64,000 bases of DNA from contig JAFQRA010000024.1 of the NCBI GenBank assembly GCA_017410325.1, positions 35,375 to 99,374 of the forward strand, written 5' to 3'. The first letter of the stretch is position 1. Each line of letters opens with the position of its first letter. Below are positions 44,497 to 62,806 of the stretch, piece by piece. A program made the position numbers and the translations under genes. The DNA is from Clostridia bacterium (GTDB taxonomy: Bacteria > Bacillota > Clostridia > Oscillospirales > Acutalibacteraceae). The notes beneath the pieces are model-generated. The model was not told the DNA's origin. It saw only the letters and a program-made list of their open reading frames with translations, and searched no databases.

Positions 44497-44790
44497 AATT
44501 GAACAGTTAAACCGATGAAGCGGAGATAACGGCGAAAAACGCCTTTACAGAGAGCCCGGGCAGCTGAAATCCGGGTAAGAAACAGTTCGTCAAATGGACC
44601 GCTGAGGGTGCAGTCAAATGTACTTTTTGTACAGAGTATTCTGCAACGTGAGGACATACGTTAGTTGTCGGGAGTATGACGGTACTCTTGAAAAGTGCAC
44701 GCTTCAAAGCGTGAATCAAGGTGGCACCACGGATAATCAGTTTATTCGTCCTTGGCAGAAAACGACATCTGCCAAGGACTTATTTTTTAC
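44497..44790 (+). promoter_or_regulatory. T-box riboswitch, tRNA-Trp type
   Basis: Stem I base AGCGG (44519-44523) pairs with CCGCT (44599-44603). The specifier loop contains AAATGGA, so the codon is UGG (44595-44597) with the expected purine after it. The T-box AAGGTGGCACCACGG lies at 44718-44732. The terminator is an 11-bp stem (44749-44759 with 44768-44778) followed by a T-run. Uncharged tRNA-Trp would stabilise the antiterminator and turn on trpB. A 10-codon reading frame with one Trp codon lies between terminator and trpB. Confidence 0.93.
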
Positions 44791-44882: not shown

Positions 44883-46103
44883 ATGAAATTAAACAACGTA
44901 GATTTTGAAACCTATTTCAATAATTACCCGGACGAAAACGGCTACTTCGGCAAATACGGCGGAGTATACGTGGACGACAAATTAAAGGCCGCTATGGCTG
45001 AAATTACGCAAGCTTACTATTCAATCTGCCAGTCCAGAAAATTCATTGCAGAGCTTCGCAGAATCCGCAAGGAATTCCAGGGCAGACCCACGCCCGTAAC
45101 CCACCTTGAAAGGCTTTCGGACGCACTCGGCGGCAAGGTACAGCTTTACGCAAAGCGTGAAGACCTCAACCACTCCGGCGCACACAAGCTCAACCACTGT
45201 ATGGGCGAGGCGCTTCTTGCAAAATATATGGGCAAGAAGAAGGTCATTGCCGAAACGGGCGCAGGACAGCACGGCGTTGCACTTGCAACAGCGGCGGCTT
45301 ATTTCGGCCTTGAGTGCGACATTTATATGGGCAGTGTCGATATCAAAAAGCAGGCACCCAACGTTGCAAGAATGAAGATTCTCGGCGCTAACGTTGTTGA
45401 GGTAACGCACGGCTTACAGACACTTAAAGAGGCTGTTGACGCCGCATTTGACGCATACAGCAAGGAATACAACGATGCAATCTACTGCATCGGCTCAGTC
45501 CTCGGCCCTCACCCCTTCCCGATGATGGTAAGAGATTTCCAGAGCGTGGTCGGCATTGAGGCAAGAGAGCAGTTTATTGAAATGACAGGCCACCTGCCCA
45601 ACGCAATCGTTGCCTGTGTCGGCGGCGGCAGCAACGCAGCAGGCCTTTTCGCAGGCTTCCTCAACGACAGCGTTGACATTTACGGCATTGAGCCCCTTGG
45701 CAGAGGCCCCAAGCTCGGCGACCACGCCGCAAGCCTTAAATACGGCACGGAAGGCATTATGCACGGCTTCAACTCGATTATGCTCAAGGACGAAAACGGT
45801 GAACCCGCACCCGTTTACTCAGTTGCAAGCGGCCTTGATTACCCCTCCTCGGGCCCCGAGCACGCCTTTCTCCAGGAAATCGGCAGAGTCAAGTACGACG
45901 TTATCGATGACGAGGAAACGATTGACGCCTTCTTCAAGCTTTCCCGTCTTGAAGGTATCATTCCCGCAATTGAAAGCGCACACGCCGTTGCCTACGGTAT
46001 GAAGCTTGCACAGAGAATGGAGCACGGCTCCGTGCTCATCAACCTCTCCGGCAGAGGCGACAAGGATATGGACTACGTAATTGAAAATTACGGAATAAGA
46101 TAA
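44883..46103 (+). CDS. trpB: Tryptophan synthase beta chain (solo trpB)
   Basis: 406 residues, TrpB1-type. PLP enzyme joining indole and serine. The PLP lysine is in HSGAHKLNH (about residues 98-106; usually HKINN), the catalytic glutamate in AETGAGQHG (about 121-129) and the phosphate-binding loop is GGGSNAAG (about 244-251). No trpA or other trp genes are nearby, so it either works with a distant TrpA or salvages indole. Trp-specific T-box control supports an anabolic role. AAGGAGAAATAAAA precedes the ATG. Confidence 0.95.
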
Positions 46104-48694: not shown

Positions 48695-48733
48695 CAAAAA
48701 TAAAACTGACCTCGCAATTAACGAAGTCAGTTT
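48695..48733 (-). terminator. Rho-independent terminator of the BCAA operon (after ilvE)
   Basis: Minus strand: AAACTGACTTCG (48733-48722), a 7-base loop and CGAGGTCAGTTT (48714-48703), all paired with one G-U, then TATTTTTG. It closes the operon that begins with the T-box at 55.7 kb. Confidence 0.85.
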
Positions 48734-48757
48734 ATGATTAATTATTTATACGGTTAA

Positions 48758-49834
48758 TCAGTTAACCTTGACAATCCAGCCGAGCTTATCTTCCTTCTTG
48801 CCCCACTGAATACCGGTGAGCTCGTCATAAAGGAACTGAGCAACGGGACCGATTTTGGACTCGTTGATAATGAGATGCTCGTCACCGTCGATATATTCGC
48901 CAACGGGAGAAATAACGGCCGCTGTACCTGTACCGAAGGACTCGGTAAGCTTGCCTGCCTTGTAAGCCTCTTTAACTTCATCAACGGAAAGCTTTCTTTC
49001 TTCAACCTTGTAGCCGTTTGCCTTAAGAACCTCAATGCAGGAAGCTCTTGTAACACCGGGAAGAATGTTGCCGTCCTCGAGAGTGGGAGTGATAACAACG
49101 CCGTCAATTACAAAGAAAACGTTCATTGCGCCGACTTCGTCGATATACTTTCTTTCAACACCGTCAAGCCAGAGAACCTGAGCGTAGCCCATTTTGTCTG
49201 CCTTCTCCTGGCCGATAAGGGATGCGGCGTAGTTACCGCCTGCCTTAGCCATACCCGTACCACCCTTTACGCAGCGGACGTATTCTCTTTCAATGTAAAT
49301 CTTTACCGGGTCCATACCGTTAGCGTAGTATGAGCCGACAGGTGAAAGGATAATACAGAAAATATAGCTGTGAGAAGCGTGAACACCGAGGAAAGCGTCT
49401 GTTGCGATAATGAACGGACGGATATAAAGAGAAGTACCGTCGCTGTGGGGAACCCAGTCCTTATCAACGTCAACAACAGCCTTGATTGCTTCAAGAGCAA
49501 GGTCGGGGTCAATACGGGGAACGCAAAGGCGGTCACAGGTATTGTTCATTCTTTCAATGTTCTTCTGGGGACGGAAAAGCTGAATGCTGCCGTCAGCAAC
49601 CCTGTATGCCTTAAGGCCCTCAAAAAGCTCCTGTGCGTAGTGGAAAACCATTGAAGACGGGTCAAGAGAAAGCGGGCCGTAGGGAACAATTCTGCCGTCG
49701 TGCCAGCCCTGACCCTCGTCGTAATTCATTACGAACATGTGGTCTGTAAAGATTTTGCCGAAGCCGAGCTTGCTTTCGTCTGCCGGCTTTGCCTTTGGAG
49801 CGGTTGTTCTTTCTATTTTAAAATCGTAGCTCAT
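48758..49834 (-). CDS. ilvE: Branched-chain amino acid aminotransferase
   Basis: 358 residues from ATG 49834 (MSYDFKIERTT), with AAAGAGG nine bases ahead; ATG 49864 would add ten unconserved residues overlapping the upstream gene. Fold-type IV PLP enzyme transaminating 2-oxoisovalerate, 2-oxo-3-methylvalerate and 2-oxoisocaproate. The PLP lysine is in AKAGGNYAASL (about 196-206). GVERKYIDEVGAMNVFFV and LPGVTRASCIEVL are class signatures of the large (BCAT2-like) bacterial form. Last gene of the T-box operon, 27 bases after the oxidoreductase gamma gene, so the product of the oxidoreductase becomes its substrate. Confidence 0.95.
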   Translation of the reverse strand: MSYDFKIERTTAPKAKPADESKLGFGKIFTDHMFVMNYDEGQGWHDGRIVPYGPLSLDPSSMVFHYAQELFEGLKAYRVADGSIQLFRPQKNIERMNNTCDRLCVPRIDPDLALEAIKAVVDVDKDWVPHSDGTSLYIRPFIIATDAFLGVHASHSYIFCIILSPVGSYYANGMDPVKIYIEREYVRCVKGGTGMAKAGGNYAASLIGQEKADKMGYAQVLWLDGVERKYIDEVGAMNVFFVIDGVVITPTLEDGNILPGVTRASCIEVLKANGYKVEERKLSVDEVKEAYKAGKLTESFGTGTAAVISPVGEYIDGDEHLIINESKIGPVAQFLYDELTGIQWGKKEDKLGWIVKVN

Positions 49835-49860
49835 TGAAAAATACCTCTTTTCAATTAATC

Positions 49861-50391
49861 TCAATAATCATAGCCGAGCTTAAGTGCTGTTTTGTTAACC
49901 TCAAGAAGATCCTGATGGCGGGCAGAAACAACCTTTGCCAAGGGTGCGTCAATACCGTCAAAGCCGAGTGACGGAACTTCCTTGAGAAGCTTGCCGGTTA
50001 TAATCATATTTGCAAGTGTACTGATACCTTTTTCGTTTGCAATTTCCGTTGCGGGAATGTAGTAGACATCAACATCCGTTCTTTCAACCTTACGGGAAAT
50101 AAGTGTTGAATCAACAAAAATCTTACCGCCGGAAACGACCTCGTTTTCGTATCTGTCGAGCGAGGGAAGGTTCATTGCAACAAGAACATCGGGATTGCTG
50201 ACGATGGGAGAACCGATGGGCTCATCGCTTACGATAACGCTGCAGTTTGCTGTACCGCCGCGCATTTCGGGGCCGTAGGACGGAAGCCAGGAAACCTGCT
50301 TGTTTTCAAGAAGACCCTTGTATGCAACAAACTTACCTGCAAAAAGGATACCCTGACCGCCGAAGCCGGCAAAAAGAATATTACAGCTCAT
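49861..50391 (-). CDS. 2-oxoacid:ferredoxin oxidoreductase, gamma subunit
   Basis: 176 residues from ATG 50391 ([20 protein letters not shown]) behind GAGGAGGCAAAATAAT. The gamma domain joins the alpha/beta core. [20 protein letters not shown] and [19 protein letters not shown] are family signatures. Longer readings from 50475 overlap the beta gene and have no conserved content. Together with the next three genes it forms a four-subunit VOR/KOR-type enzyme that interconverts 2-oxoacids and acyl-CoA plus CO2 using ferredoxin. Confidence 0.93.
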
Positions 50392-50392
50392 A

Positions 50393-51151
50393 TTATTTTG
50401 CCTCCTCTTCTGCATAGATATCTTTATAAACACCGAGAGGATAGTAAGGAAGCATATTCTGCTCAAGCCACTCAAGCGCCTTGACCGGTGTCATACCCCA
50501 GTTTGTGGGGCAGGTTGAAACAACCTCAATAAGTGAGAAGCCCTTGCCCTCAAGCTGGTTCTGGAAAGCCTTTTTGATAGCCTTCTTTGCCTTTTTGATG
50601 TTTGCGGGGCTGTTAACTGCAACTCTTTCAAGATATGCCGCACCGTCCACCTGTGAAAGCAGTTCACAGACCTTGACGGGGTAACCGACAGTTTCAACGT
50701 CTCTGCCGTAGGGAGAGGTCTGGGTTACCTGACCGGGAAGAGTTGTGGGAGCCATCTGGCCGCCCGTCATACCGTAAATGGCGTTGTTGACGAAAATAAC
50801 GGTAATATTTTCTCTTCTTGCTGCTGCGTGAACTGTTTCTGCAGTACCGATAGCGGCAAGGTCACCGTCGCCCTGGTATGTAAATACAATGTTGTTTTCA
50901 GGGTCTGCACGCTTTACACCCGTTGCAACTGCCGGTGCTCTGCCGTGAGGCGCCTGAACAAAATCTACGTCAAAATAATCGTATGCCATAACTGAACAGC
51001 CAACGGGTGCTACGCCGATTGTTCTGCCCTGAATACCCAGCTCATCAATTGCCTCAGCAACAAGACGGTGAATAATACCGTGTGTGCAACCGGGGCAATA
51101 GTGAAGAGTTGCATCAGTTAATGACTTGGGTTTTTCAAATACAACAGCCAT
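50393..51151 (-). CDS. 2-oxoacid:ferredoxin oxidoreductase, beta (TPP-binding) subunit
   Basis: 252 residues. Thiamine-diphosphate motif [19 protein letters not shown] lies at about 97-115 with [14 protein letters not shown] after it. [13 protein letters not shown] (about 18-30) and [11 protein letters not shown] carry the cluster/TPP-contact cysteines of this subunit. It shares one base with the alpha stop codon (TAATG). Confidence 0.94.
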
Positions 51152-52215
51152 TATTTGTCGCCTCCTTCATTGACACTTTCAATCTTTGCAAGAACCTCTT
51201 CGGGAGAAGGAATCATACCGCCTACACGGTTGCAAAGATATACGGGCTTCTTACATTCAACAGCGAGCTGAACGTCTTCCATCATCTGGCCCATATTCAT
51301 TTCTACGGAAATAAACGCCTTGCACTTGTCGGCCGCCGCTCTGAGAACCTTGTTGGGGAACGGCCAGAGTGTGATCGGACGAATCATACCGACCTTGATG
51401 CCCTTTGCTCTTGCTTCTACAATAGCGTTCTTGGCAACGCGGGCAGTAATACCGAAAGAAACTACGCAGATTTCCGCATCGTCCATAAGGTACTCTTCGT
51501 AAAGAACTTCGTTCTCTTCTATTTCCTTATAGCGCTCGTAACGCTCGAAGTTTGTCTTTTCGAGCTCTTCGGGCTTGAGGTAAAGAGAGTTGACGATGTT
51601 GTGCTTTCTCTCACCCTTTGTGCCTGTAAGCGCCCAGGGCTTGTCAAACGTTTTTGCGTTGGGCTCAGGAAGCTCAACGGGCTCCATCATCTGACCCATT
51701 GTACCGTCTGCAAGAATCATAGCAGGCATTCTGTACTTGTCGGCAAGGTCAAACGCCGTTGAAGTAAGGGAAGCCATTTCCTGAACGGAAGACGGTGCAA
51801 GAACAATTTTCTTGAAGTCACCGTGGCTGCCGCCCTTGACTGCCTGGAAATAGTCGGACTGCGAAGGCTGAATACCGCCAAGACCGGGGCCGCCGCGCTG
51901 AACGTTAACTATAAGAGCAGGAAGATCCGAGCCTGCAAGATAGGAAATGCCCTCACTCTTGAGAGAAACTCCGGGGCTTGATGAAGACGTCATAACACGC
52001 TTGCCCGTTGCGGCAACGCCAAGCACCATATTTACGGCAGCAATTTCACTTTCTGCCTGAAGGAATACGCCGCCGATTTTCGGCATACGCTTTGCCATAT
52101 AAGCGGCGATTTCTGTCTGAGGAGTGATAGGATAACCGAAGTAGTGCATACAGCCGGCTCTGATAGCGGCCTCGGCAATAGCCTCGTTACCTTTCATTAA
52201 TACTTTCTCACCCAT
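51151..52215 (-). CDS. vorB: 2-oxoacid:ferredoxin oxidoreductase, alpha subunit (VorB-like)
   Basis: 354 residues. Pyrimidine-binding and transketolase-C domains. [21 protein letters not shown], then [20 protein letters not shown], and [20 protein letters not shown] are wording typical of the 3-methyl-2-oxobutanoate (2-oxoisovalerate) subfamily. The 2-oxoglutarate KOR group is close, so the preference for branched 2-oxoacids rests on context: ilvE downstream and acyl-CoA synthetases upstream. Confidence 0.9.
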
Positions 52216-52226
52216 TTATTTTCACC

Positions 52227-52433
52227 TTACCTTTCAACCGTGATTGCACAGTCAGGGCACATTGTTGCACAGAAAGCACAACCAATGCACTGACTCTCAT
52301 CAATACAATGAGCAGGATGATGCCCTTTTGCGTTAAGCTTTGCAGAGTCAAGCTCCACTATTTTTTTAGGGCAAACCGTTACGCAAAGGCCGCAGCCCTT
52401 GCACACATTTTCTGCGAATGTTACTTTTGCCAT
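52227..52433 (-). CDS. 2-oxoacid:ferredoxin oxidoreductase, delta (2x 4Fe-4S ferredoxin) subunit
   Basis: 68 residues. Two CxxCxxCxxxCP clusters: CKGCGLCVTVCP (residues 11-22) and CIGCAFCATMCP (about 49-60). It passes electrons between the TPP subunit and free ferredoxin. It starts behind GGAGGCAGAAAA and lies 11 bases before the alpha gene. Confidence 0.95.
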   Translation of the reverse strand: MAKVTFAENVCKGCGLCVTVCPKKIVELDSAKLNAKGHHPAHCIDESQCIGCAFCATMCPDCAITVER

Positions 52434-52461
52434 TTTTCTGCCTCCATTCAGGAAAAATCTA

Positions 52462-53133
52462 TTATACTATCTTTTTTTGTAAAGTCAGCGGAAACAGATC
52501 GGGAATCCTTCCGTTGAGATTATTAACTAAATTGGCCGTTACCGTTGTCATTTTTACGGGAAGCCCCGAAATTTCGCTTAACCTCTCCGCCTCCTTAACA
52601 GAAGCCAAAACATCTTCAGGTGTTGTGATTTCGCCAAGGTTAGAGTTGTTGACAATTGCGGTAAAGCTGATTTTGCACGCCGCTTCTATCTCGCGCATAA
52701 TTTCAAGAGCATCCTGAGCCGCGGGAGTAAGAGGTCTGTACTTATTGAAAACGAAAAGCATTTCATAATCGTTTTCGTTTTTAATGAAGTCGGCATAGCG
52801 GCCCAAAGCATAAGCGCCACGGTCATCACCGCCGATATCCATTATAGCACTTTCTCCCTGTTTGTCAAAAATCGAGTAAACCTCCTGCGGCAATGCAGGC
52901 AAATCAACGTTTGAGGAAGCGAAGGCTGAGGATATAAGGCGTATGCCGGCACTGTTAAGCTCATCAATGCTGTCTCTGGTGCGGAAATAGGGGTTAACGA
53001 TATCGAGGTCTGCAACGACAACGTCTTTGCCGAGATTTTTAAGATAGAAAGCGTAATTGACCGCTATGTTCGTTTTGCCTGAGCCGTAATGGCCCGCGAA
53101 CAACGTAATTCTCTTGCTTTGCACCTTAATCAC
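52462..53133 (-). CDS. SIMIBI-class P-loop ATPase inside the oxidoreductase operon
   Basis: 223 residues. Deviant Walker A AGHYGSGKTNIAVN (about 13-26), VVADLDIVNPYFRTRD (Walker A'-like region, about 38-53) and a Walker B strand AIMDIGGDDRGAYALGRYAD (about 94-113), then VFNKYRPLTPAAQD. It resembles ParA/CobQ/NifH-like ATPases but is not ParA itself. Gene position between an acyl-CoA synthetase and the ferredoxin subunit suggests a maturation, cluster-insertion or electron-gating role, all inferred. Confidence 0.7.
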   Translation of the reverse strand: MIKVQSKRITLFAGHYGSGKTNIAVNYAFYLKNLGKDVVVADLDIVNPYFRTRDSIDELNSAGIRLISSAFASSNVDLPALPQEVYSIFDKQGESAIMDIGGDDRGAYALGRYADFIKNENDYEMLFVFNKYRPLTPAAQDALEIMREIEAACKISFTAIVNNSNLGEITTPEDVLASVKEAERLSEISGLPVKMTTVTANLVNNLNGRIPDLFPLTLQKKIV

Positions 53134-53142
53134 CTCTGCATA

Positions 53143-55434
53143 TTATAATTTGTTTCTCATTATCTTGCCGCTTGTTGTTTTCGGAAGCTCATCTCTGAAT
53201 ACAACGATTCGCGGATATTTGTAAGGAGCTGTTTTCTCCTTGACGTACTGTTGGATTTCCTTTTTGAGTTCGTCAGTCGGCTCCGTGCCCTTGACAAGCA
53301 CGATGCTTGCCTTGACAACCTGACCGCGTACCTCATCGGGGGCGGCGGAAACACCGCACTCAAGAACATAAGGAAGTTCCATAATAACGCTTTCAATTTC
53401 AAACGGGCCGATACGGTAGCCTGAGGACTTGATAACGTCGTCAACACGGCCGACATACCAATAGAAGCCGTCTTCATCGCGCCAGGCAACGTCGCCCGTA
53501 TGATAGTAGCCGTCGTGCCAGACTTCTTTTGTCTTGGCTTCGTCTTTATAGTAGCCGGTAAACAGACCGCAGGGAGCACCGTTTTCAACATTGACAACGA
53601 TTTCGCCGTTTTCACCGACAGGAACTTCGTTGCCGTCGTTATCAACGAGCCTGACGTCATAAATCGGAGCAGGCTTACCCATTGAGCCGATTTTATGGTC
53701 GGCACCCGTCATATTACCGATAATCATTGTGCTTTCGGTCTGACCGAAGCCCTCCAGAATCTGGAGGCCGGTTGCTTTTTCAAATTGACGGTAAACCTCG
53801 GGGTTGAGTGCCTCGCCTGCCGTCGTCATATGCTTGACGGACGAGAAATCGTATTTTGAAATGTCCTGCTTTATCATCATTCTGAGCATCGTGGGCGGTG
53901 CACAGAAGGTTGTGATATGATGCTTTGCAAACATCGGCAAGATATCTGCCGCATCAAATCTGTCGAAATCGTAAACAAAGGTTGCCGCCTCACAAAGCCA
54001 CTGGCCGTAAAGCTTGCCCCACATTGACTTGGCCCAGCCTGTATCGGAAATTGTGAAGTGCAGACCTTCGGGGTCAACATTGTGCCAGTACTTTGCGGTA
54101 TGGAAATGGCCCAGTGCATATTTGTAATTGTGAGCCGCAATTTTGGGGTAACCCGTTGTGCCCGATGTGAAGAACATCAGCATAAGGTCGTCTCCGCCCG
54201 GAGCATTCTCGCCCCTCTCGAAGTGAGTGCTGTAGAGAACTCTCTCTTCATCGAAGTTTCTCCAGCCTTCTCTTTCGCCGTTGACAATAATCTTGTGTTC
54301 AAGCGAAGGACAGGTTTTTGCGGCCAGCTCTACCTGATGAGCGGTATCGCCGTCGGCAGTACAAAGAATGGCTTTGACCCCTGCCGCCCGGAAGCGGTAC
54401 TCAAAATCGTGCTCCTGAAGCTGATTCGGCGCGGGAATTGCAACGGCACCGAGCTTATTAAGACCGATCATTGCATACCAATACTGGTAGTGACGCTTGA
54501 GCACGAGCATAACTCTGTCGCCCTTTTTGATACCAAGGGATTTGAAATAGTTGGCTGCCTGGGCAGAGCCTTTTTTCATATCCTTAAAGGTAATGCGCCT
54601 TTCCGTTTTGTCGCGTGAGATGTGGAGCATTGCAAGCTTTTCGGGCTCTTTGTCCGCAAGCTCATCCACAAGGTCAAAGGCAAAATTGAAATTTTCGGTG
54701 TTTTTAAATTTAATCGAAGTAGGTGTTCCGTTTTCGTTTACGGCAACGTCAACGTACTTCTTGTAAATACGTTCTTTGGTGTCCTTAACGGCTGCCGGCT
54801 TTGTATCCTTAACGGTTTTTGCGGGCTGAAGCTCGGGAATAGGCTCGCCCGAGGGGTTGAGAACGATAGCGTAGAAGGTACAGTCCTTACCGTCAACGGC
54901 AATCATACCGTGAGGTGTCAGCGAATCGTAATAAATACTGTCGCCCGGGCCGAGAATTTCGGAGTGCTCGCCAACCTGAACCTTAAGCTTGCCCTCAATA
55001 ACGATGTCGAGCTCCTGACCGTCGTGTGACGTAAGCTCAATGTCCTTATTCTGGTTTTCTTCGCTGTATGTAGCTTCAACGAAAAGAGGCTCGGCAATTT
55101 TGTTTTTGAATTTAGCGGCAAGGTTAAAATAAGTCATACCGTGCGCTTTTTCAATTTTCTGACCCTTGCCCGCTTTTGTGAAAACATAGTTTGTAAGCTT
55201 AGGCGTGCTGCCCTCGATGATGCTTGAAACGTCAACGTTGAACGCTAACGCACAGCGGTAGATGAAAGCAAAGTTAAGGTCGCTTTCACCGTTTTCGCAA
55301 GCAATGTATTCGCTTTCGGAAACGCCTGTTTTTTCCGCCATCTGAGCGGCGGTATAGCCCTCAATTTCACGAAGCTCTCTGATTCTGGCGGCCATTTCCT
55401 TGATTTTGAAATCAAGACCCGTCATTTTCTCCAT
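53143..55434 (-). CDS. XRE-cupin-acyl-CoA synthetase fusion 1 (branched-chain acid activation, inferred)
   Basis: 763 residues from ATG 55434 behind GGAGGAT; a reading from 55524 would extend into the T-box terminator. Domains: XRE helix-turn-helix (about 15-75, RIRELREIEGYTAAQMAEKT), cupin (about 125-200, THDGQELD to TPHGMIAVDG) and medium-chain-type acyl-AMP ligase (about 225-763) with FFTSGTTGYPKIA, EGFGQTES, GRVDDVIKSSGYRIGPFEIE and the catalytic lysine in TSGKIMRNKL at the very end. A DNA-binding sensor is thus fused to a CoA ligase. It heads the oxidoreductase-ilvE operon behind a T-box and is a close paralogue of the gene at 55793-58078. Substrates are inferred to be branched short-chain acids. 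Confidence 0.85.
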   Translation of the reverse strand: MEKMTGLDFKIKEMAARIRELREIEGYTAAQMAEKTGVSESEYIACENGESDLNFAFIYRCALAFNVDVSSIIEGSTPKLTNYVFTKAGKGQKIEKAHGMTYFNLAAKFKNKIAEPLFVEATYSEENQNKDIELTSHDGQELDIVIEGKLKVQVGEHSEILGPGDSIYYDSLTPHGMIAVDGKDCTFYAIVLNPSGEPIPELQPAKTVKDTKPAAVKDTKERIYKKYVDVAVNENGTPTSIKFKNTENFNFAFDLVDELADKEPEKLAMLHISRDKTERRITFKDMKKGSAQAANYFKSLGIKKGDRVMLVLKRHYQYWYAMIGLNKLGAVAIPAPNQLQEHDFEYRFRAAGVKAILCTADGDTAHQVELAAKTCPSLEHKIIVNGEREGWRNFDEERVLYSTHFERGENAPGGDDLMLMFFTSGTTGYPKIAAHNYKYALGHFHTAKYWHNVDPEGLHFTISDTGWAKSMWGKLYGQWLCEAATFVYDFDRFDAADILPMFAKHHITTFCAPPTMLRMMIKQDISKYDFSSVKHMTTAGEALNPEVYRQFEKATGLQILEGFGQTESTMIIGNMTGADHKIGSMGKPAPIYDVRLVDNDGNEVPVGENGEIVVNVENGAPCGLFTGYYKDEAKTKEVWHDGYYHTGDVAWRDEDGFYWYVGRVDDVIKSSGYRIGPFEIESVIMELPYVLECGVSAAPDEVRGQVVKASIVLVKGTEPTDELKKEIQQYVKEKTAPYKYPRIVVFRDELPKTTSGKIMRNKL

Positions 55435-55469
55435 TGGTTTATCCTCCTGTTTTGTGGGAGCAAACATAA

Positions 55470-55740
55470 AAACCCGTCCCAAAGATAATCTTTGAGACGA
55501 GTTAATGCCAACCCGCGGTACCACTCAAATTGCAGTAAAAACTGCCGCTCTCAAGGTCTGCCAACCTCTATGCATTTACGCAGCAATCACGGAGAGGTTC
55601 TACTAAGCAAAACGCCTTTCTTCCTCCCGGCTCGGAAACTACAAACACCGGAAACCTTGCTATGACTTGCACCGACCGTCATCTCTCTGAAAGCTCGGTA
55701 TACCGTGCCCTTTTCTTCAACGCCTTTAATATTCAACTCA
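55470..55740 (-). promoter_or_regulatory. T-box riboswitch 1, candidate Val specifier
   Basis: Minus strand. Stem I has AGAGAGATGACGGTCGGTGC and 5' GAAG before the specifier side. The codon slot before the closing TTTCC helix reads GTA plus G (55642-55640 for GTA). The T-box GTGGTACCGCGG lies at 55524-55513. The terminator (about 11 bp with one G-U, 55499-55475) is followed by GGTTTTTATG. The amino acid call is tentative. Confidence 0.88.
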
Positions 55741-55744
55741 CTCA

Positions 55745-55773
55745 AAGATACCACAATTATATTGAAAAGTCAA
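55745..55773 (-). promoter_or_regulatory. Promoter of T-box operon 1
   Basis: TTGACT (55773-55768), 17 bases, TATCTT (55750-55745) on the minus strand. It lies 20 bases after the stop of the upstream synthetase gene, with no terminator between them. Confidence 0.65.
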
Positions 55774-55792: not shown

Positions 55793-58078
55793 TCAAAGCT
55801 TGTTTCGCATTATTTTTCCGCTGATTGTCTTCGGAAGCTCATCTCTGAAAACAACGATTCTCGGATATTTATAAGGAGCAGTGTTTTTCTTGACGTATTC
55901 CTGAATTTCTTTTTTGAGCTCCTCTGTCGGCTCAGTACCCTTGGTAAGAACAACGCTTGCCTTGACAACCTGGCCACGAACCTCATCGGGAGCAGCGGAA
56001 ACGCCGCATTCGAGAACATAAGGAAGCTCCATAATAACGTTTTCTATTTCAAACGGGCCGATGCGGTAGCCGGAGGATTTGATAACGTCGTCAACGCGGC
56101 CGACATACCACAGGTAACCGTCCTCGTCTCTCCAGGCAGTATCGCCCGTATGATAAAGACCGTCGTGCATAGCCTCCGTAGTTTTTTCCTCATCCACTTC
56201 GGCGCCCTTATAGTAGCCGAGGTAGAGTCCGCACGGATTCTTATCGCCCAGTCTTACAACGATTTCGCCAGTTTCACCGTCTGCAACGGAGTTGCCGTCA
56301 GGGTCAACAACATCAATATCATAAAGCGGTGTAGGCTTACCCATAGCACCGATTTTGATTTTCGTGCCGTTGAGGTTTGCAATGGAAAGAGTTGTTTCCG
56401 TCTGACCGAAGCCCTCGTGAATTCTCAGACCCGTTGTCTTTTCAAACTGCTTGAAAACCTCAGGGTTAAGAGCTTCGCCGGCAGTTGTTGCGTGCTTTAT
56501 CGAGGACAGATCATACTGTGAAATATCCTGCTTGATAAGCATTCTGTACATTGTGGGCGGTGCGCAGAAGGTTGTGATGTTGTACTTTGCAAACATCGGA
56601 AGAATCTTTGAGGCATCAAAACGCTCAAAATCATACACGAATACGCAGCCCTCGCAAAGCCACTGACCGTAGAGCTTACCCCACAGCGCCTTGCCCCAGC
56701 CTGTTTCCGAAATCGTGAAGTGAACGCCGTCACGCTGTACGCAGTGCCAGTATTTAGCCGTAATAAAATGGCCCAGAGGATACTTATGGCTGTGAGCCGC
56801 AATTTTCGGATAACCCGTCGTGCCCGAGGTAAAGAGCATAATCATCGGGTCATCGCCGCAGGCAGAGTCAGCCTCACGGACAAATCTCCTGCTGAAAAGG
56901 CCGAATTCCTCGTCAAAATTATGCCAGCCCTCTTTTGAGCCGTTGGCAACGATTTTCGTTTTAAGAGTAGGACAGTTTTTCTGTGCCTCGTCGATATAAT
57001 CGGTTGCCTTTCCGTCTGCCGTAACGACAACGGCACTTACACCTGCCGCATTGAAGCGGTATTCATAATCGTGAACAACAAGCTGATTCGTTGCGGGAAT
57101 TGCAATTGCGCCGAGCTTATGAAGAGCGAGAATAGCAAACCAGAACTGATAATTGCGCTTAAGCACAAGAAGAACTCTGTCACCCTTCTTGATACCGAGA
57201 GATTTGAAATAGTTCGCCGCCTGCGAGGAATACTCTTTCATCTCTTTAAAGGTAAACTTACGCTCCGTCATATCCTCCGCGATATGAATCATTGCAAGCT
57301 TCTCGGGATAGTTTCTGCCGATATTGTCAACAACGTCAAACGCAAAGTTGAACTTATCCTCATTATGGAACTTAATGCCGTTGCAGACGCCGTTTTCGTC
57401 AACCGTAGTCGTAATGAATTTATCGCAGATGAGCTTCTCCTCTGCCGTGGATTTGCCGGTGTTTACGGTGCTCATATGGGTGTCGGCAAGCTGCTCGTCT
57501 TCAGCCATAACCACGGCAAGGAAAAGACAGTCCTCACCGTCAACAGCTATCATACCGTGAGGAATTGAGCTCTTGTAGAATATGCTGTCGCCCTCGTGAA
57601 GGATTTCCACGTGGTCACCGACCTGAACCTTAAGAGAGCCCTTGACAACAAAGTCAAACTCCTGGCCGGAGTGAGTTGTAACCTCAATCGGTTTTGTCTG
57701 CAGCTCGCTTGAATATTCGTACTTTACCCAGTACGGATTGGCAAGCTTATTCTTGAATTTGGGAGCAAGGTTCTGAATAAGAATGCCTTCTTCGTTGGCG
57801 GTTACCTGACCCTGACCGTGTCTGGTAAGGTTATATGTTGTGAGCTTTGCGCTCTGACCTTCGAGAAGGTCGGTAAGCTCAACGCCGAAAGCCAATGCAC
57901 ACTTATGAACAAACGAGAACGGCATATCCTCCATACCGTTTTCGTACGCAAGATACTCTTCAAGGCTTACGCCTGTTTTTTCCGCCATATCAACATCGGA
58001 CAGATTGTAGATGTCGCGCAGCTCCTTAATTCGCTCAGCCACCTCTGCTAATTTGTTTTCATAAGAATTGTCAAGCAT
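55793..58078 (-). CDS. XRE-cupin-acyl-CoA synthetase fusion 2
   Basis: 761 residues with the same architecture as the downstream paralogue. XRE domain about 15-75 (ERIKELRDIYNLSDVDMAEK), cupin about 125-205 (THSGQEFDFVVKGSLKVQVG, IPHGMIAVDGEDCLF) and acyl-AMP ligase with FTSGTTGYPKIAAHSHKYPL, HEGFGQTETTLSIANLNGT, RVDDVIKSSGYRIGPFEIEN and terminal ISGKIMRNKL. It has its own T-box leader. The two copies look like a tandem duplication, probably with different acid preferences. Confidence 0.85.
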   Translation of the reverse strand: MLDNSYENKLAEVAERIKELRDIYNLSDVDMAEKTGVSLEEYLAYENGMEDMPFSFVHKCALAFGVELTDLLEGQSAKLTTYNLTRHGQGQVTANEEGILIQNLAPKFKNKLANPYWVKYEYSSELQTKPIEVTTHSGQEFDFVVKGSLKVQVGDHVEILHEGDSIFYKSSIPHGMIAVDGEDCLFLAVVMAEDEQLADTHMSTVNTGKSTAEEKLICDKFITTTVDENGVCNGIKFHNEDKFNFAFDVVDNIGRNYPEKLAMIHIAEDMTERKFTFKEMKEYSSQAANYFKSLGIKKGDRVLLVLKRNYQFWFAILALHKLGAIAIPATNQLVVHDYEYRFNAAGVSAVVVTADGKATDYIDEAQKNCPTLKTKIVANGSKEGWHNFDEEFGLFSRRFVREADSACGDDPMIMLFTSGTTGYPKIAAHSHKYPLGHFITAKYWHCVQRDGVHFTISETGWGKALWGKLYGQWLCEGCVFVYDFERFDASKILPMFAKYNITTFCAPPTMYRMLIKQDISQYDLSSIKHATTAGEALNPEVFKQFEKTTGLRIHEGFGQTETTLSIANLNGTKIKIGAMGKPTPLYDIDVVDPDGNSVADGETGEIVVRLGDKNPCGLYLGYYKGAEVDEEKTTEAMHDGLYHTGDTAWRDEDGYLWYVGRVDDVIKSSGYRIGPFEIENVIMELPYVLECGVSAAPDEVRGQVVKASVVLTKGTEPTEELKKEIQEYVKKNTAPYKYPRIVVFRDELPKTISGKIMRNKL

Positions 58079-58116: not shown

Positions 58117-58400
58117 ATAAAAAAGCCCCAAAAAGAAACTTTTACGTTTCTCTTTGAGACGAATTATAAAATCCGCGGTACCACTCAAATTGCAAGAAAA
58201 ACTTGCCTCTCAGGGTCAAACAACCCTTTTGCACTAACGCAGCATACTCGAAAGAAGCCTACTGGAAAATCGTTCGGTTCTTCAACTCGGAAGGGATGGG
58301 TTTTGAAACAAGGTACTGTTGGCTCGCAGCAACCGCCAACTCTCTGAAAGACCGTAGCTTCAACCGTCTTCGTCACAGTTTTTATTTGCGATATTATATT
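58117..58400 (-). promoter_or_regulatory. T-box riboswitch 2, candidate Ile specifier
   Basis: Minus strand. Stem I AGAGAGTTGGCGGTTGCTGC; specifier slot ATC (58297-58295) before CCTTCC, pairing 5' GAAG. The base after the codon would be C, not the usual purine, so the call is uncertain. T-box GTGGTACCGCGG at 58184-58173. Terminator 15 bp with wobbles (58160-58146 with 58139-58125) followed by TTTTTTATTT. Confidence 0.88.
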
Positions 58401-58537: not shown

Positions 58538-58815
58538 AATATTGTTAAATGCTACGAAGGAATTACGGTTTTTGGTACGGCAGTCCAGAGAGTTGACGGT
58601 TGGTGCAAGTCAATCTGTTACAAAAATTCGGTCTCGTTCCGGAGCAGAGCTCCCCAACCGCCTGCGCGTGTAAGGAGCTACGGATGCCCCGTTATCATGG
58701 CTACAGACTTTATAGAGTCTTAATGGAGTGACTGCTTTTGCAGTAACCGGGGTGGTACCGCGGATTTTAAATTCGTCCCTGAGGTCACAGCTTGTTGACC
58801 TCAGGTTTTTTTATT
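58538..58815 (+). promoter_or_regulatory. T-box riboswitch 3, candidate Leu specifier
   Basis: Stem I AGAGAGTTGACGGTTGGTGC, outer helix GGAA/TTCC; specifier slot CTC (58633-58635) followed by G. T-box GGGGTGGTACCGCGG at 58749-58763. Terminator: perfect 10-bp stem (58778-58787 with 58796-58805), then TTTTTTT. A shift of one or two bases would give UCU (Ser) or GUC (Val); Leu is favoured by the LeuA-like gene downstream. Confidence 0.88.
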
Positions 58816-58868
58816 TTCCTAAAACAATTATTACATCAAATAATCTTTTATACGAAAGGATGAGCAAA

Positions 58869-60272
58869 ATGAGAAACATCATTATTGCAGACCGCACCGT
58901 TGTCCTTAAAGCGCAGTCCAAGGACACGTCTCTCAGCTTCAAGGAAAAGGTTGAAATCGCAAGACTGCTTGAAAGCGCAAAGGTTCAGGTTGTAGAATTC
59001 CCCGTAATTGAAAACGTTAAAATTGACACTCTCCTACTTAAAACAATCTGTGCTTTTCTGAAAAACAGCACAATGAGCGTATGCACGGGCATGACCGAGG
59101 AAGGCGTTGTCAACGCATGGAACGCAATTTCTTCCGCCTCCAAGCCCCGTCTTTCCGTTGCGCTTCCCCTTTCCCCCGTTCAGATGGAATACGTTTGCCA
59201 CAAAAAGGCACCGAAAATGCTTGAACTTATCACTTCACTTGTTACCAAGGCCGCTTCGCTTTGCAGTGATGTTGAATTTGTTGCGCTTGATGCAACAAGA
59301 GCTGAAAAGGATTTCCTTTACGATGCAATAAACGCCGCTGTCAGCGCAGGTGCAAAAACCGTTACAATCTGCGACGATGAAGCCGCCATGCTGCCCGACA
59401 CCTTTGTTGATTTCATCAAGGAAACGAAAGAAAGCGTTCCCGCATTACAGAACGTAAAGCTCGGCGTTATGTGCGACAACAAGAACGGTTGCTCGGCAGC
59501 CGCTTCAATGATGGCTCTTGCCGCAGGTGCAGATGAAATCAAAGCAGCCAGCGGCAGCAATATGGGAATTGCACCGCTTCTCACCGTATCCAACATCGTC
59601 AGAAACAGCGGCGACAAGCTTGGCATCAGCGCTGACCTCAATTACACGGAATTTTCACGTATTATTTCCCAGGTTTCAAATATTACGCACGGCAAGCCCA
59701 CAGCAGACGACACTGCCGTTACCGTTCCCTACTCGGAATTCAGCCTTACGGAAAACGATGATGCTCAGACCGTTGCAGACGCTGTCAAGAAGCTGGGCTA
59801 CGACCTTTCCGAGGAGGACCACGCAAAGGTTTACGAGGCATTCAGAGCTCTTGCTAAAAAGAAGCCCGTTTCAAACAAAGAGCTTGATGCCATTGTTGCC
59901 ACGAGTGCACTTCAGGTAACTCCTGCCTATAAGCTTATCAACTATGTTATCAACTCAGGCAACATTATAAATTCATCCGCTCAGATTACACTTGAAAAGG
60001 ATGAGCAGGAGAAAAACGCCATTGCCATCGGCGACGGCCCCATCGATGCCGCCTTCAACGCCATTGAGCAGATTTTAGGCCACCACTACGAGCTTGACGA
60101 TTTCCAGATTCAGTCCGTTACGCAAGGCAGAGAGGCTGTCGGCTCCGCAATCGTAAGGCTTCGCTCAAACGGCAAGCTTTATGCAGGCAAGGGCATTTCG
60201 ACAGACATTATCGGCGCGAGCATAAAAGCATATATCAACGCTATCAACAAGATTATTTTTGAGGAGAACTGA
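58869..60272 (+). CDS. LeuA-like protein with degenerate active site and intact leucine-regulatory domain
   Basis: 467 residues from ATG 58869 (AAAGG nine bases ahead). The TIM-barrel half aligns by eye with 2-isopropylmalate synthase: IADRTVVLKAQSKDTSLSF replaces the usual DTTLRDGEQ start, and LGVMCDNKNGCSAAASMMAL (about 197-216) replaces the VHCHNDLGLAVANSLAA metal site. The R-D pair and both metal-binding histidines are gone. VEFVALDATR is still recognisable. The C-terminal domain (about 345-467, YKLINYVINSGNIINSSAQI, LRSNGKLYAGKGISTDIIGA) is the LeuA allosteric domain. It is probably not a functional synthase; a leucine sensor or partner of the next gene is inferred. Confidence 0.75.
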   Translation: MRNIIIADRTVVLKAQSKDTSLSFKEKVEIARLLESAKVQVVEFPVIENVKIDTLLLKTICAFLKNSTMSVCTGMTEEGVVNAWNAISSASKPRLSVALPLSPVQMEYVCHKKAPKMLELITSLVTKAASLCSDVEFVALDATRAEKDFLYDAINAAVSAGAKTVTICDDEAAMLPDTFVDFIKETKESVPALQNVKLGVMCDNKNGCSAAASMMALAAGADEIKAASGSNMGIAPLLTVSNIVRNSGDKLGISADLNYTEFSRIISQVSNITHGKPTADDTAVTVPYSEFSLTENDDAQTVADAVKKLGYDLSEEDHAKVYEAFRALAKKKPVSNKELDAIVATSALQVTPAYKLINYVINSGNIINSSAQITLEKDEQEKNAIAIGDGPIDAAFNAIEQILGHHYELDDFQIQSVTQGREAVGSAIVRLRSNGKLYAGKGISTDIIGASIKAYINAINKIIFEEN

Positions 60273-60277
60273 TAACT

Positions 60278-62806
60278 ATGAAGCTTTCTTTTTCAACCAA
60301 GGGTTGGCACGGATATTCATGGGATGAGTTCTGCCATATAGCAGAAAAGCAAGGCTTCAACGGTATTGAGCTCCATAATATCAACAACTCTTCCTTCAGC
60401 GAGAAAAACGGCGCATTCTATTCAACCTCCGCTCAGGCAACGGTACGCAATATGTACGAGAAGAATCTGAGAATTCCTTGTATTGACACGCTTGCAAACC
60501 CTGCCTGTGTCGAGGACAGAGAGGCCTTCACAAAGGAGCTTGACAAGTGCCTTGAGATTGCCTGTGCGCTTCATATCCCCTGCGTACGCATCAAAGCAAC
60601 CGACACGGGTGCTGACTACGACACACAGAAAAACGAGGTTATAAGCGTTCTTTCCGCAATAATCCCCAAGGCCGAGAAGCTGGGTGTTACAATCATCGTT
60701 GAAACGGCAGGCATTTTTGCAGACTCGGCAAAGCTGCTTGAAGTGCTTAACACCTTCGCCTGTGACAGTCTTGCCGCACTGTGGGACGTTTATTCAACAT
60801 ACTTTATAGCCAAGGAAGAGCCCGAAATCACAATCAAGAACCTGGGCGCATACGTAAAGCACGTTCACGTTAAGGATGCTGTTTGCGAAAACGGCACGCC
60901 CGAATACTGCCTCATCGGCGAAGGCGAGCTTCCCATTGACGAGGTTGTACTTTCTCTTACATCCGTCAACTACAACGGCTACGCCTCAATTGAATGGGAC
61001 CCCAAATGGATGCCCGAGCTTGATGATATGGAAATCATCTTCTCACACTACGTCAGCTTTATGGCACGTTTCGGCAACACCTCAAGAGGCAAGAAAAATC
61101 TCTTCTGGAACAAGGCGCACACGGGCAACTACGTCTGGAAAAAGGAAACTCTTATCGAAAAGACCTTTTCGCAGGTGCTCGACAAAATGGTTGAGGAATT
61201 CCCCGACCAGTACGCTTTCAAATACACAACGCTTGATTATACAAGAACGTATTCTCAGTTCCGTGACGACGTTGATGAATGCTGCAGAGCCTTTCTTGCG
61301 CTCGGCGTAAAGCCGGGAAGCCACATCGCCGTATGGGCAACCAACGTTCCCCAGTGGTATATCGCTTTCTGGGCGGCAACAAAAATCGGTGCCGTGCTCG
61401 TTACGGTAAACACCGCATACAAAATTGCGGAAGCAGAATATCTTCTCAAGCAGTCCGACACACATACTCTTATTCTGATTGACGGCTGGAGAGATTCAAA
61501 CTACAGCGAAATAATCGGCCAGCTCTGCCCCGAGCTTGAAAACACCGTACCCGGTGAGCCCCTCCATTCAAAGAGGCTTCCTTTCCTGCGGAACGTTATC
61601 ACGGTCGGCTTCAAGAAAAAGGGCTGTCTTACCTGGGACGAGGCTATTGCAAGAGCCTCCGAGGTACCCGTTGAAGAGGTTTACAGAATTGCAGCCAATG
61701 TTGACGTAAACGACGTATGCAATATGCAGTACACCTCGGGCACGACAGGCTTCCCCAAGGGCGTTATGCTCACCCACTACAACATTGTAAACAACGGCAA
61801 AAACATCGGCGACAGAATGGACCTTTCCACCGCTGACAGAATGATGATTCAGGTGCCTATGTTCCACTGTTTCGGAATGGTGCTTGCCATGACCGCAACA
61901 ATGACACACGGCGGCACGATATTCCCGCTCCCCTATTTCTCACCCAAGCCGTCGCTTGCCTGCATCAACAACGAAAGAATTACCGCATTCCACGGCGTTC
62001 CAACAATGTTCATTGCTCTGCTTGAGCACCCGGATTTCCCGAAAACGGACTTCTCATATATGAGAACGGGCATTATGGCAGGCAGCCCCTGCCCCATCTC
62101 CGTTATGCAGGACGTTGTTAACAAAATGAATATGAAGGAAATCACCATTGTTTACGGACAGACCGAGGCTTCACCCGGCTGTACAATGAGCTCAACGGAC
62201 GACCCGTTGGAGGTCAGAGTTGCAACAGTCGGCCGTGCGCTGCCCGAAATTGAGTGCAAGATTGTCAACCCCGAAACCGGTGAAGACTGCCCTGACGAGG
62301 TTACGGGCGAATTTGTTGCACGCGGCTACAACATTATGAAGGGCTACTACAAGATGCCCAAGGCAACAGCCTCCACAATCGATAAGGACGGCTGGCTGCA
62401 CACGGGCGACCTTGCCTGCAGAACTCCGGACGGCAACTACCGAATCACGGGCAGACTTAAGGATATGATTATCCGCGGCGGTGAAAACATTTACCCGAAG
62501 GAAATCGAAGAATTCATTTACACTCACCCGAAGGTAAACGACGTTCAGGTTATCGGCGTACCCGATGAGCAGTACGGTGAAGAAATCTGCGCCTGCGTTA
62601 TCCTTAAGGAGGGCGAGGAAATGACAATAGAAGAAATGAAGCAATACATTATGGACAATATGGCCCGCCATAAGGTTCCAAAATACATTGACTTTGTTGA
62701 CGCCTTCCCGATGAATGCCGCAGGTAAAATCCTCAAGTACAAAATGCGTGAAAACGCTATTGAAAAATACGGCCTTCAGAAAGCAAACAGCGTAGAAACA
62801 GCATAA
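60278..62806 (+). CDS. TIM-barrel (xylose isomerase-like) / acyl-CoA synthetase fusion
   Basis: 842 residues. Residues 1-265 form a xylose isomerase/IolE-like barrel with the metal residues kept in order: Glu in IIVETAGIF, Asp in LWDVYS, His in KHVHVKD and Glu in SIEWDP. Residues about 285-842 are an acyl-AMP ligase: QYTSGTTGFPKGVMLTHYN, YGQTEASPGC, GRLKDMIIRGGENIYPKEIE and the terminal lysine motif AAGKILKYKM. The ligase differs from the two XRE-cupin synthetases (closer to fatty acyl-CoA synthetases). The start follows the LeuA-like stop by six bases. The role of the barrel is unknown. Confidence 0.85.
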   Translation: MKLSFSTKGWHGYSWDEFCHIAEKQGFNGIELHNINNSSFSEKNGAFYSTSAQATVRNMYEKNLRIPCIDTLANPACVEDREAFTKELDKCLEIACALHIPCVRIKATDTGADYDTQKNEVISVLSAIIPKAEKLGVTIIVETAGIFADSAKLLEVLNTFACDSLAALWDVYSTYFIAKEEPEITIKNLGAYVKHVHVKDAVCENGTPEYCLIGEGELPIDEVVLSLTSVNYNGYASIEWDPKWMPELDDMEIIFSHYVSFMARFGNTSRGKKNLFWNKAHTGNYVWKKETLIEKTFSQVLDKMVEEFPDQYAFKYTTLDYTRTYSQFRDDVDECCRAFLALGVKPGSHIAVWATNVPQWYIAFWAATKIGAVLVTVNTAYKIAEAEYLLKQSDTHTLILIDGWRDSNYSEIIGQLCPELENTVPGEPLHSKRLPFLRNVITVGFKKKGCLTWDEAIARASEVPVEEVYRIAANVDVNDVCNMQYTSGTTGFPKGVMLTHYNIVNNGKNIGDRMDLSTADRMMIQVPMFHCFGMVLAMTATMTHGGTIFPLPYFSPKPSLACINNERITAFHGVPTMFIALLEHPDFPKTDFSYMRTGIMAGSPCPISVMQDVVNKMNMKEITIVYGQTEASPGCTMSSTDDPLEVRVATVGRALPEIECKIVNPETGEDCPDEVTGEFVARGYNIMKGYYKMPKATASTIDKDGWLHTGDLACRTPDGNYRITGRLKDMIIRGGENIYPKEIEEFIYTHPKVNDVQVIGVPDEQYGEEICACVILKEGEEMTIEEMKQYIMDNMARHKVPKYIDFVDAFPMNAAGKILKYKMRENAIEKYGLQKANSVETA

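Follow-up and report, generated by a model that had tools for sequence, protein, structure and literature searches.

The DNA analysed here (the window) is a stretch of 64,000 nt from a Clostridia bacterium of the Acutalibacteraceae (assembly GCA_017410325.1, contig JAFQRA010000024.1). On its minus strand, from 55773 down to 48703, lie in this order a promoter-like site, a T-box leader, the acyl-CoA ligase gene ACS1, a gene for a P-loop protein, the genes of a four-subunit ferredoxin oxidoreductase (VOR), ilvE and a terminator. The first-pass annotation had described these as one operon on a single strand, and all its parts were located. It had also given the intervals between the genes as gaps of 11-30 bases or overlaps. 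An overlap was found (1 nt between the alpha and beta genes), but the range did not hold, as the coordinates give gaps of 1 to 28 nt: 9 nt between ACS1 and the P-loop gene, 28 nt between the latter and the ferredoxin-like subunit, 11 nt from there to alpha, 1 nt between beta and gamma, and 26 nt between gamma and the ATG of ilvE (49834). Adjoining this operon, ACS2 lies upstream on the same strand behind an Ile T-box of its own, and a divergent operon lies behind a Leu T-box.

The promoter-like site (TTGACT-17-TATCTT, 55745..55773, minus strand) is a consensus match only, at 9/12 positions, and such matches are frequent in the region (29 found versus a shuffled mean of 11.5). At the other end of the operon a hairpin scan revealed a terminator-like hairpin after ilvE (48703..48733, minus strand).

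Ligases, oxidoreductase and a LeuA-like protein

ACS1 (53143..55434, minus strand) encodes a protein of 763 aa in which a helix-turn-helix (HTH) domain (PF12844) and a cupin domain (PF07883) precede an AMP-forming acyl-CoA ligase (PF00501, PF13193). The product of ACS2 (55793..58078, minus strand; 761 aa) has the same layout by Pfam and is 64% identical to ACS1, and both ligases show good conservation of the HTH and cupin domains. The closest NCBIfam model of the two ligases was MbcS, which they matched with 443.7 and 435.3 bits, the cut-off being 850; they are related to MbcS and are not filed as MbcS. The best PDB match of ACS1 was 3etc, the Methanosarcina ligase MacsMa, with 625.6 bits, the next match scoring 352. 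ACS1 and ACS2 differ from MacsMa and MbcS by the HTH and cupin domains in front and by scores under the MbcS cut-off. The tryptophan aligned to Trp259 of MacsMa, a critical residue of the acyl pocket there, placed by counting from the YHTGD motif (W472 and W466), was present in 79/79 ACS1 and 42/42 ACS2 sequences, whereas the placement in ACS1 and ACS2 of the glycine that replaces Trp416 of Acs is uncertain. The 3ETC ligase prefers 2-methylbutyrate, according to passages of PMC10455477, and for MbcS a part of PMC10026030 describes a selectivity for 2-methylbutyrate and isobutyrate, isovalerate being used poorly.

The P-loop gene (52462..53133, minus strand) encodes a CbiA/ParA-like protein (Pfam CbiA, 28.6 bits). 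A CbiA match was found in 19/19 homologues scanned, and a PDB sequence search returned no relative. In many related loci this gene adjoins the VOR genes. The alpha subunit of VOR (51151..52215) scored 558.8 bits with the NCBIfam model NF005507 (VorB), over the cut-off of 399; its solved relatives are all distant. The other three subunits, likewise on the minus strand, were recognized by domain or by weaker matches, and all three remained under every NCBIfam cut-off: beta, the TPP subunit (50393..51151), by PF02775, gamma (49861..50391) by PF01558, and delta (52227..52433), a ferredoxin-like subunit of 68 aa, by its sequence and by 50.2 bits with the OGOR delta model, whose cut-off is 125. The best matches of beta and delta were models for 2-oxoglutarate enzymes, both under cut-off. 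The last gene, ilvE (48758..49834, minus strand), encodes a branched-chain aminotransferase that exceeded the cut-offs of both NF009897 (495.7 bits) and TIGR01123 (415.2 bits).

In the divergent operon, on the plus strand, the first gene (58866..60272) encodes a LeuA-like protein. Catalysis by 2-isopropylmalate synthase (LeuA) depends on an Arg-Asp motif and on the metal ligands of an HxH motif. The window protein shares with LeuA the domain layout, HMGL-like followed by LeuA_dimer (Pfam PF08502, 115.8 bits), and differs from it by the loss of these residues: alignment to solved isopropylmalate synthases showed the absence of the catalytic Arg-Asp and of both metal-binding histidines. Among 20 LeuA-like copies the Arg was seen in 1/20 and the Asp in 3/20, never both together, and the HxH histidines in 0/20 at either position. 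The residues found instead vary widely between the copies. Conservation was 0.79 in the leucine-binding domain versus 0.61 in the barrel. The LeuA-like protein is thus a probable pseudoenzyme, as judged from these alignments, and it may sense leucine.

The LeuA-like gene was followed by a gene for a TIM-barrel ligase in 20/21 loci, the window and related loci together; in the remaining one, L028, the stretch ends inside the LeuA-like gene. In the window this gene (60278..62806, plus strand) encodes a fusion of 842 aa of a TIM barrel (PF01261) and an AMP-forming ligase (PF00501, PF13193) that scored 697.9 bits with PRK12583, whose cut-off is 832. The TIM barrel in front of the ligase is xylose-isomerase-like.

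T-box leaders and their specifier codons

The leader of the ACS1-VOR-ilvE operon (55490..55729, minus strand) scored 81.7 bits with the Rfam T-box model RF00230 (E 3.6e-18 in a search of 601 bases) and was also matched by a stem-I model. This score lies below the gathering score of 93, and the leader is therefore unlisted in a default whole-window Rfam scan. The leader of ACS2 (58152..58385, minus strand) and that of the LeuA-like gene (58545..58783, plus strand) exceeded the gathering score with 104.2 and 104.6 bits, and both were matched by the stem-I model as well. A chance T-box in front of ACS1 was ruled out by the E value and by conservation in relatives. The hairpin scan placed a terminator-like hairpin after each of the three leaders, at 55503-55471 for Val, where it reaches 55471, at 58160-58125 for Ile and at 58778-58805 for Leu.

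In the Rfam alignment GUA occupies the specifier position of the first leader, which should therefore read tRNA-Val. The stem-I model gave AUC (Ile) for the leader of ACS2 and CUC (Leu) for that of the LeuA-like gene. The first-pass annotation had considered that the T-box might bind an unrelated tRNA such as Phe or Trp; with GUA at the specifier position, control of the operon by either was ruled out. The Trp T-box of the window (44506-44756, found with Rfam, specifier UGG) belongs to trpB (44883-46103), in front of which it lies, and provides an internal control for the specifier readings. The three leaders for Val, Ile and Leu share the sequence UGGU at the bulge that receives the tRNA end, and the Trp leader has UGGC there; both presumably agree with the discriminator bases of these tRNAs.

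The stem-I covariance model was built from 21 leaders, the Val leader of the window among them, and was applied to the window and to the best 80 of 239 relatives. Specifier codons were read within the final 14 ungapped letters of every model match, and genes whose query match starts after residue 15 are left out of the counts, which concern related sequences and not independent events. In this set the leaders of ACS1 were 71/71 Val (64 GUA and 7 GUC; 71 leaders for 79 genes), those of ACS2 41/41 Ile, all AUC (41 leaders for 42 genes, the other gene being at a contig edge), and those of the LeuA-like gene 20/20 Leu (19 CUC and 1 CUG; 20 leaders for 21 genes). Eight ACS1 genes had no leader: seven lie directly behind ACS2, and in L055 the contig begins within the leader. 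After removal of the training sequences 64 ACS1, 34 ACS2 and 13 LeuA-like leaders remained, with zero exceptions. Among the 139 matches of the model, seven lay elsewhere than in front of the three genes: CUC in L007 at a contig end, one CCG, three UGG, among them the window's own leader of trpB, and two weak matches.

In an extra sample of 19 stretches from 18 hand-chosen genomes, the clusters obeyed the same specifier rule where a leader was found. A third subgroup of solitary HTH-cupin ligases (L091-L102, 60-62% identical) had an AUC (Ile) T-box in 12/12 cases. For L103, an Ile-type cluster, no leader was found.

The survey of gene order in relatives, which the first-pass annotation had suggested, revealed conservation of both the order and the specifiers. 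In the host, VOR and ilvE are on the same transcript as ACS1, the Val transcript. In L037, L040, L044, L066, L077 and L108 the VOR genes follow ACS2 and a leaderless ACS1 behind an Ile leader. The presence of VOR behind a Val leader in some loci and behind an Ile leader in others implies that the shared enzymes are placed under either control. In L103, L104 and L105 an Ile-type ligase is directly followed by the P-loop and VOR genes, and ACS1 is absent; the genomes of these loci retain ilvC, ilvD and leuC. Among the best 80 of 239 relatives, 30 loci carry ACS1 without VOR or the P-loop gene on the sequenced stretch, several of these stretches being short. Loci of this kind include L027, L029, L034, L062, L068, L074 and L082, and most of them are behind a Val T-box.

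Classical ilv and leu genes in the host and its relatives

The host genome (2.67 Mb in 39 contigs, 96% complete) was searched with profiles for the classical genes of branched-chain amino acid (BCAA) synthesis, and no match over cut-off was obtained for ilvC, ilvD, leuC, leuB or ilvB. In control genomes ilvC, ilvD and ilvB were over cut-off in 14/14 each, but leuC and leuB in 9/14 each, so that these two are weaker tests than ilvC and ilvD. The first-pass annotation had raised the possibility that these genes are missing from the host. For ilvC, ilvD, leuB and leuC, all under cut-off, this was borne out; for ilvB it is less clear, as the host has an acetolactate-synthase-like TPP enzyme that reached 343 bits against the ilvB cut-off of 538. 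The weak matches in the host were considered as remnants of a classical pathway, and this was rejected for all but the acetolactate-synthase-like protein, which may be one: aconitase and IolD exceeded cut-offs of their own, and the others were an isocitrate-dehydrogenase-type protein encoded beside aconitase and a dipicolinate-synthase-like protein, these being under their own cut-offs.

The distribution of ilvD was determined in 197 genomes of the order, 72 of the negatives being taken as such from the overall tally. Two sets were defined among the matches listed: 25 genomes with an ACS1-type ligase (at least 69% identity over at least 600 residues), and 21 genomes, picked by hand, with both ACS1 and ACS2. 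The latter include G105, where the pair is on two contigs, G192, where one copy is partial, and G054, whose ACS1 is 64-65% identical. Among the matches listed, and with kinship uncorrected, ilvD was found in 3/25 genomes with an ACS1-type ligase versus 97/172 without (Fisher p 2.5e-5), and in 2/21 genomes with the pair versus 98/176 without (p 4.3e-5). Within the host family, again among the matches listed, ilvD was absent from 3/3 genomes with the ligase pair and present in 14/14 without it.

The two pair genomes that have ilvD (G082 and G154) are also the only two of the 21 with ilvC, so that 19/21 lack both among the matches listed. The clostridial leuC was over cut-off in one of these two, and thus in 1/21 pair genomes, and the match in the other was partial and below cut-off; the model for it was positive in 1/14 controls and in 4/24 of the genomes checked (the 21 pair genomes and three Ile-type genomes). 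LeuA-like matches of 42-100% were present in 21/21 pair genomes. The three Ile-type genomes have VOR next to an Ile-type ligase and lack an ACS1-type match among the matches listed; 3/3 retain ilvC, ilvD and leuC. In two of them no LeuA-like match was found and in the third only matches of 28-34%. This pattern is expected if the modules replace branches of the classical pathway. Counting against such a replacement, G082 and G154 carry the ligase pair together with ilvC and ilvD over cut-off. Against the loss of the pathway from the host count the 96% completeness of its genome, in 39 contigs, and the presence of the acetolactate-synthase-like protein.

A proposed route from branched acids to amino acids

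It is very likely that the cluster is an anabolic system of three branches that takes the place of the classical ilv/leu pathway and is wired to the tRNA of each amino acid. The gene content, the T-boxes, the specifiers with their conservation, and the classical genes tested being under cut-off are read directly from the DNA. The first-pass annotation had taken the operon as a single anabolic route to valine, isoleucine and leucine. The anabolic part of this claim is largely supported by the Val specifier, the conserved order and the classical genes under cut-off. The operon itself corresponds to the Val branch together with the shared VOR and IlvE, and Ile and Leu appear to have separate ligases, each under a T-box of its own, just beyond 48695..55773.

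We infer the substrates of the ligases, the reductive direction of VOR and the induction by starvation. Shortage of one amino acid would leave its tRNA (Val, Ile or Leu) uncharged, and the matching T-box would antiterminate. The cognate ligase would then be made: ACS1, proposed to be an isobutyrate ligase, for Val; ACS2, proposed as a 2-methylbutyrate ligase, for Ile; and the TIM-barrel ligase, proposed to act on isovalerate, for Leu. The last of these substrates is the least direct of the three assignments. The MbcS-type family is poor on isovalerate, which fits the presence of another type of ligase under the Leu T-box. The shared VOR would combine the acyl-CoA with CO2 and reduced ferredoxin to give the 2-oxoacid, and the shared IlvE would aminate the 2-oxoacids to Val, Ile and Leu. 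Since the specifier codons name the product of each ligase, they directly predict substrates for three enzymes as yet uncharacterised. A puzzle in this scheme is how a shortage of Ile or Leu alone would raise VOR, which lies behind the Val leader. Also counting against the three-branch model are the 30 ACS1 loci that have no nearby VOR, and the scores under threshold of beta, gamma and delta, of the ligases and of the Val T-box.

The same genes could be read as catabolic, IlvE and VOR oxidizing BCAA to acyl-CoAs and the ligases salvaging the acids. Oxidation is the usual role given to VOR, and gene content alone leaves the direction free. Yet Val, Ile and Leu T-boxes would turn such genes on while the cell is starved of the amino acids being burnt, and most genomes with the system lack the classical ilv genes. 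The ligases are moreover AMP-forming. Enzymes of this type use ATP to activate acids, a cost that fits acid activation rather than energy-yielding catabolism. Catabolism is thus improbable. It was also considered that the main function of the ligases is to provide membrane lipid synthesis with branched acyl-CoA primers, the link with amino acids being secondary. Their closest NCBIfam model is MbcS, which has such a role in fatty acid priming in Staphylococcus (PMC10026030, in part), and the 30 ACS1 loci without nearby VOR or P-loop gene leave room for an added role. As a main function this has little probability, with ACS1 on the transcript of VOR and ilvE and the ligases under amino-acid-specific leaders. 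That the substrate of the oxidoreductase is a different 2-oxoacid, for example 2-oxoglutarate, and that the enzyme is in the operon for some other reason, as the best matches of beta and delta (both under cut-off) might suggest, is most improbable in view of an alpha subunit over the VorB cut-off, the transcript shared with IlvE and ACS1, and the Val specifier.

In the three-branch anabolic system the LeuA-like protein could have a place as well. The HTH-cupin part in front of the Val and Ile ligases might be their sensor, and the decayed LeuA might be the leucine-responsive regulatory partner of the TIM-barrel ligase, a suggestion that we make tentatively and that is rather less than probable. 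If it is true, control of synthesis by tRNA would be combined with control of activity by the end-product, the latter by a decayed enzyme of the pathway that was replaced.

The use of branched acids as BCAA precursors in the rumen is old knowledge, as stated in sections of PMC7356843, which cite Allison 1966, Allison and Peel 1971, and Robinson and Allison for branched-acid carboxylation in rumen anaerobes. The chemistry proposed here is that same route, from isovalerate, isobutyrate and 2-methylbutyrate to Leu, Val and Ile; in those sections no genes are named, whereas here a gene cluster with three ligases and cognate T-boxes is proposed. In Methanobrevibacter ruminantium reductive carboxylation of 2-methylbutyrate to isoleucine was likewise inferred from the genome, but this is an archaeon, the route as described there concerns Ile only and, unlike in the window, a T-box is absent (PMC2812497, in part). 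T-boxes of the same leader class and with the same cognate amino acids are described on BCAA genes and transporters of Firmicutes in parts of PMC2494555, in the main text of which the terms ferredoxin, isovalerate, acyl-CoA and AMP-dependent have no occurrence. In the literature searched, which covered few subscription papers and in which the pseudoenzyme was never the sole target, no description was found of the cluster itself, of T-box control of such ligases by their cognate tRNA, or of a LeuA-like pseudoenzyme, nor of any gene cluster behind the branched-acid requirement of rumen bacteria. What appears new is the cluster with its tRNA wiring; the chemistry is known from rumen work.

Fibre-degrading rumen bacteria require branched volatile acids. 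Isoacids serve as feed additives for ruminants, as mentioned in a part of PMC12272956. The host, a gut bacterium seemingly without the textbook BCAA genes, apparently uses branched fatty acids that other microbes excrete to make its BCAA. If this is true, the cluster would be a genomic marker of gut bacteria reliant on protein fermenters for their branched acids.
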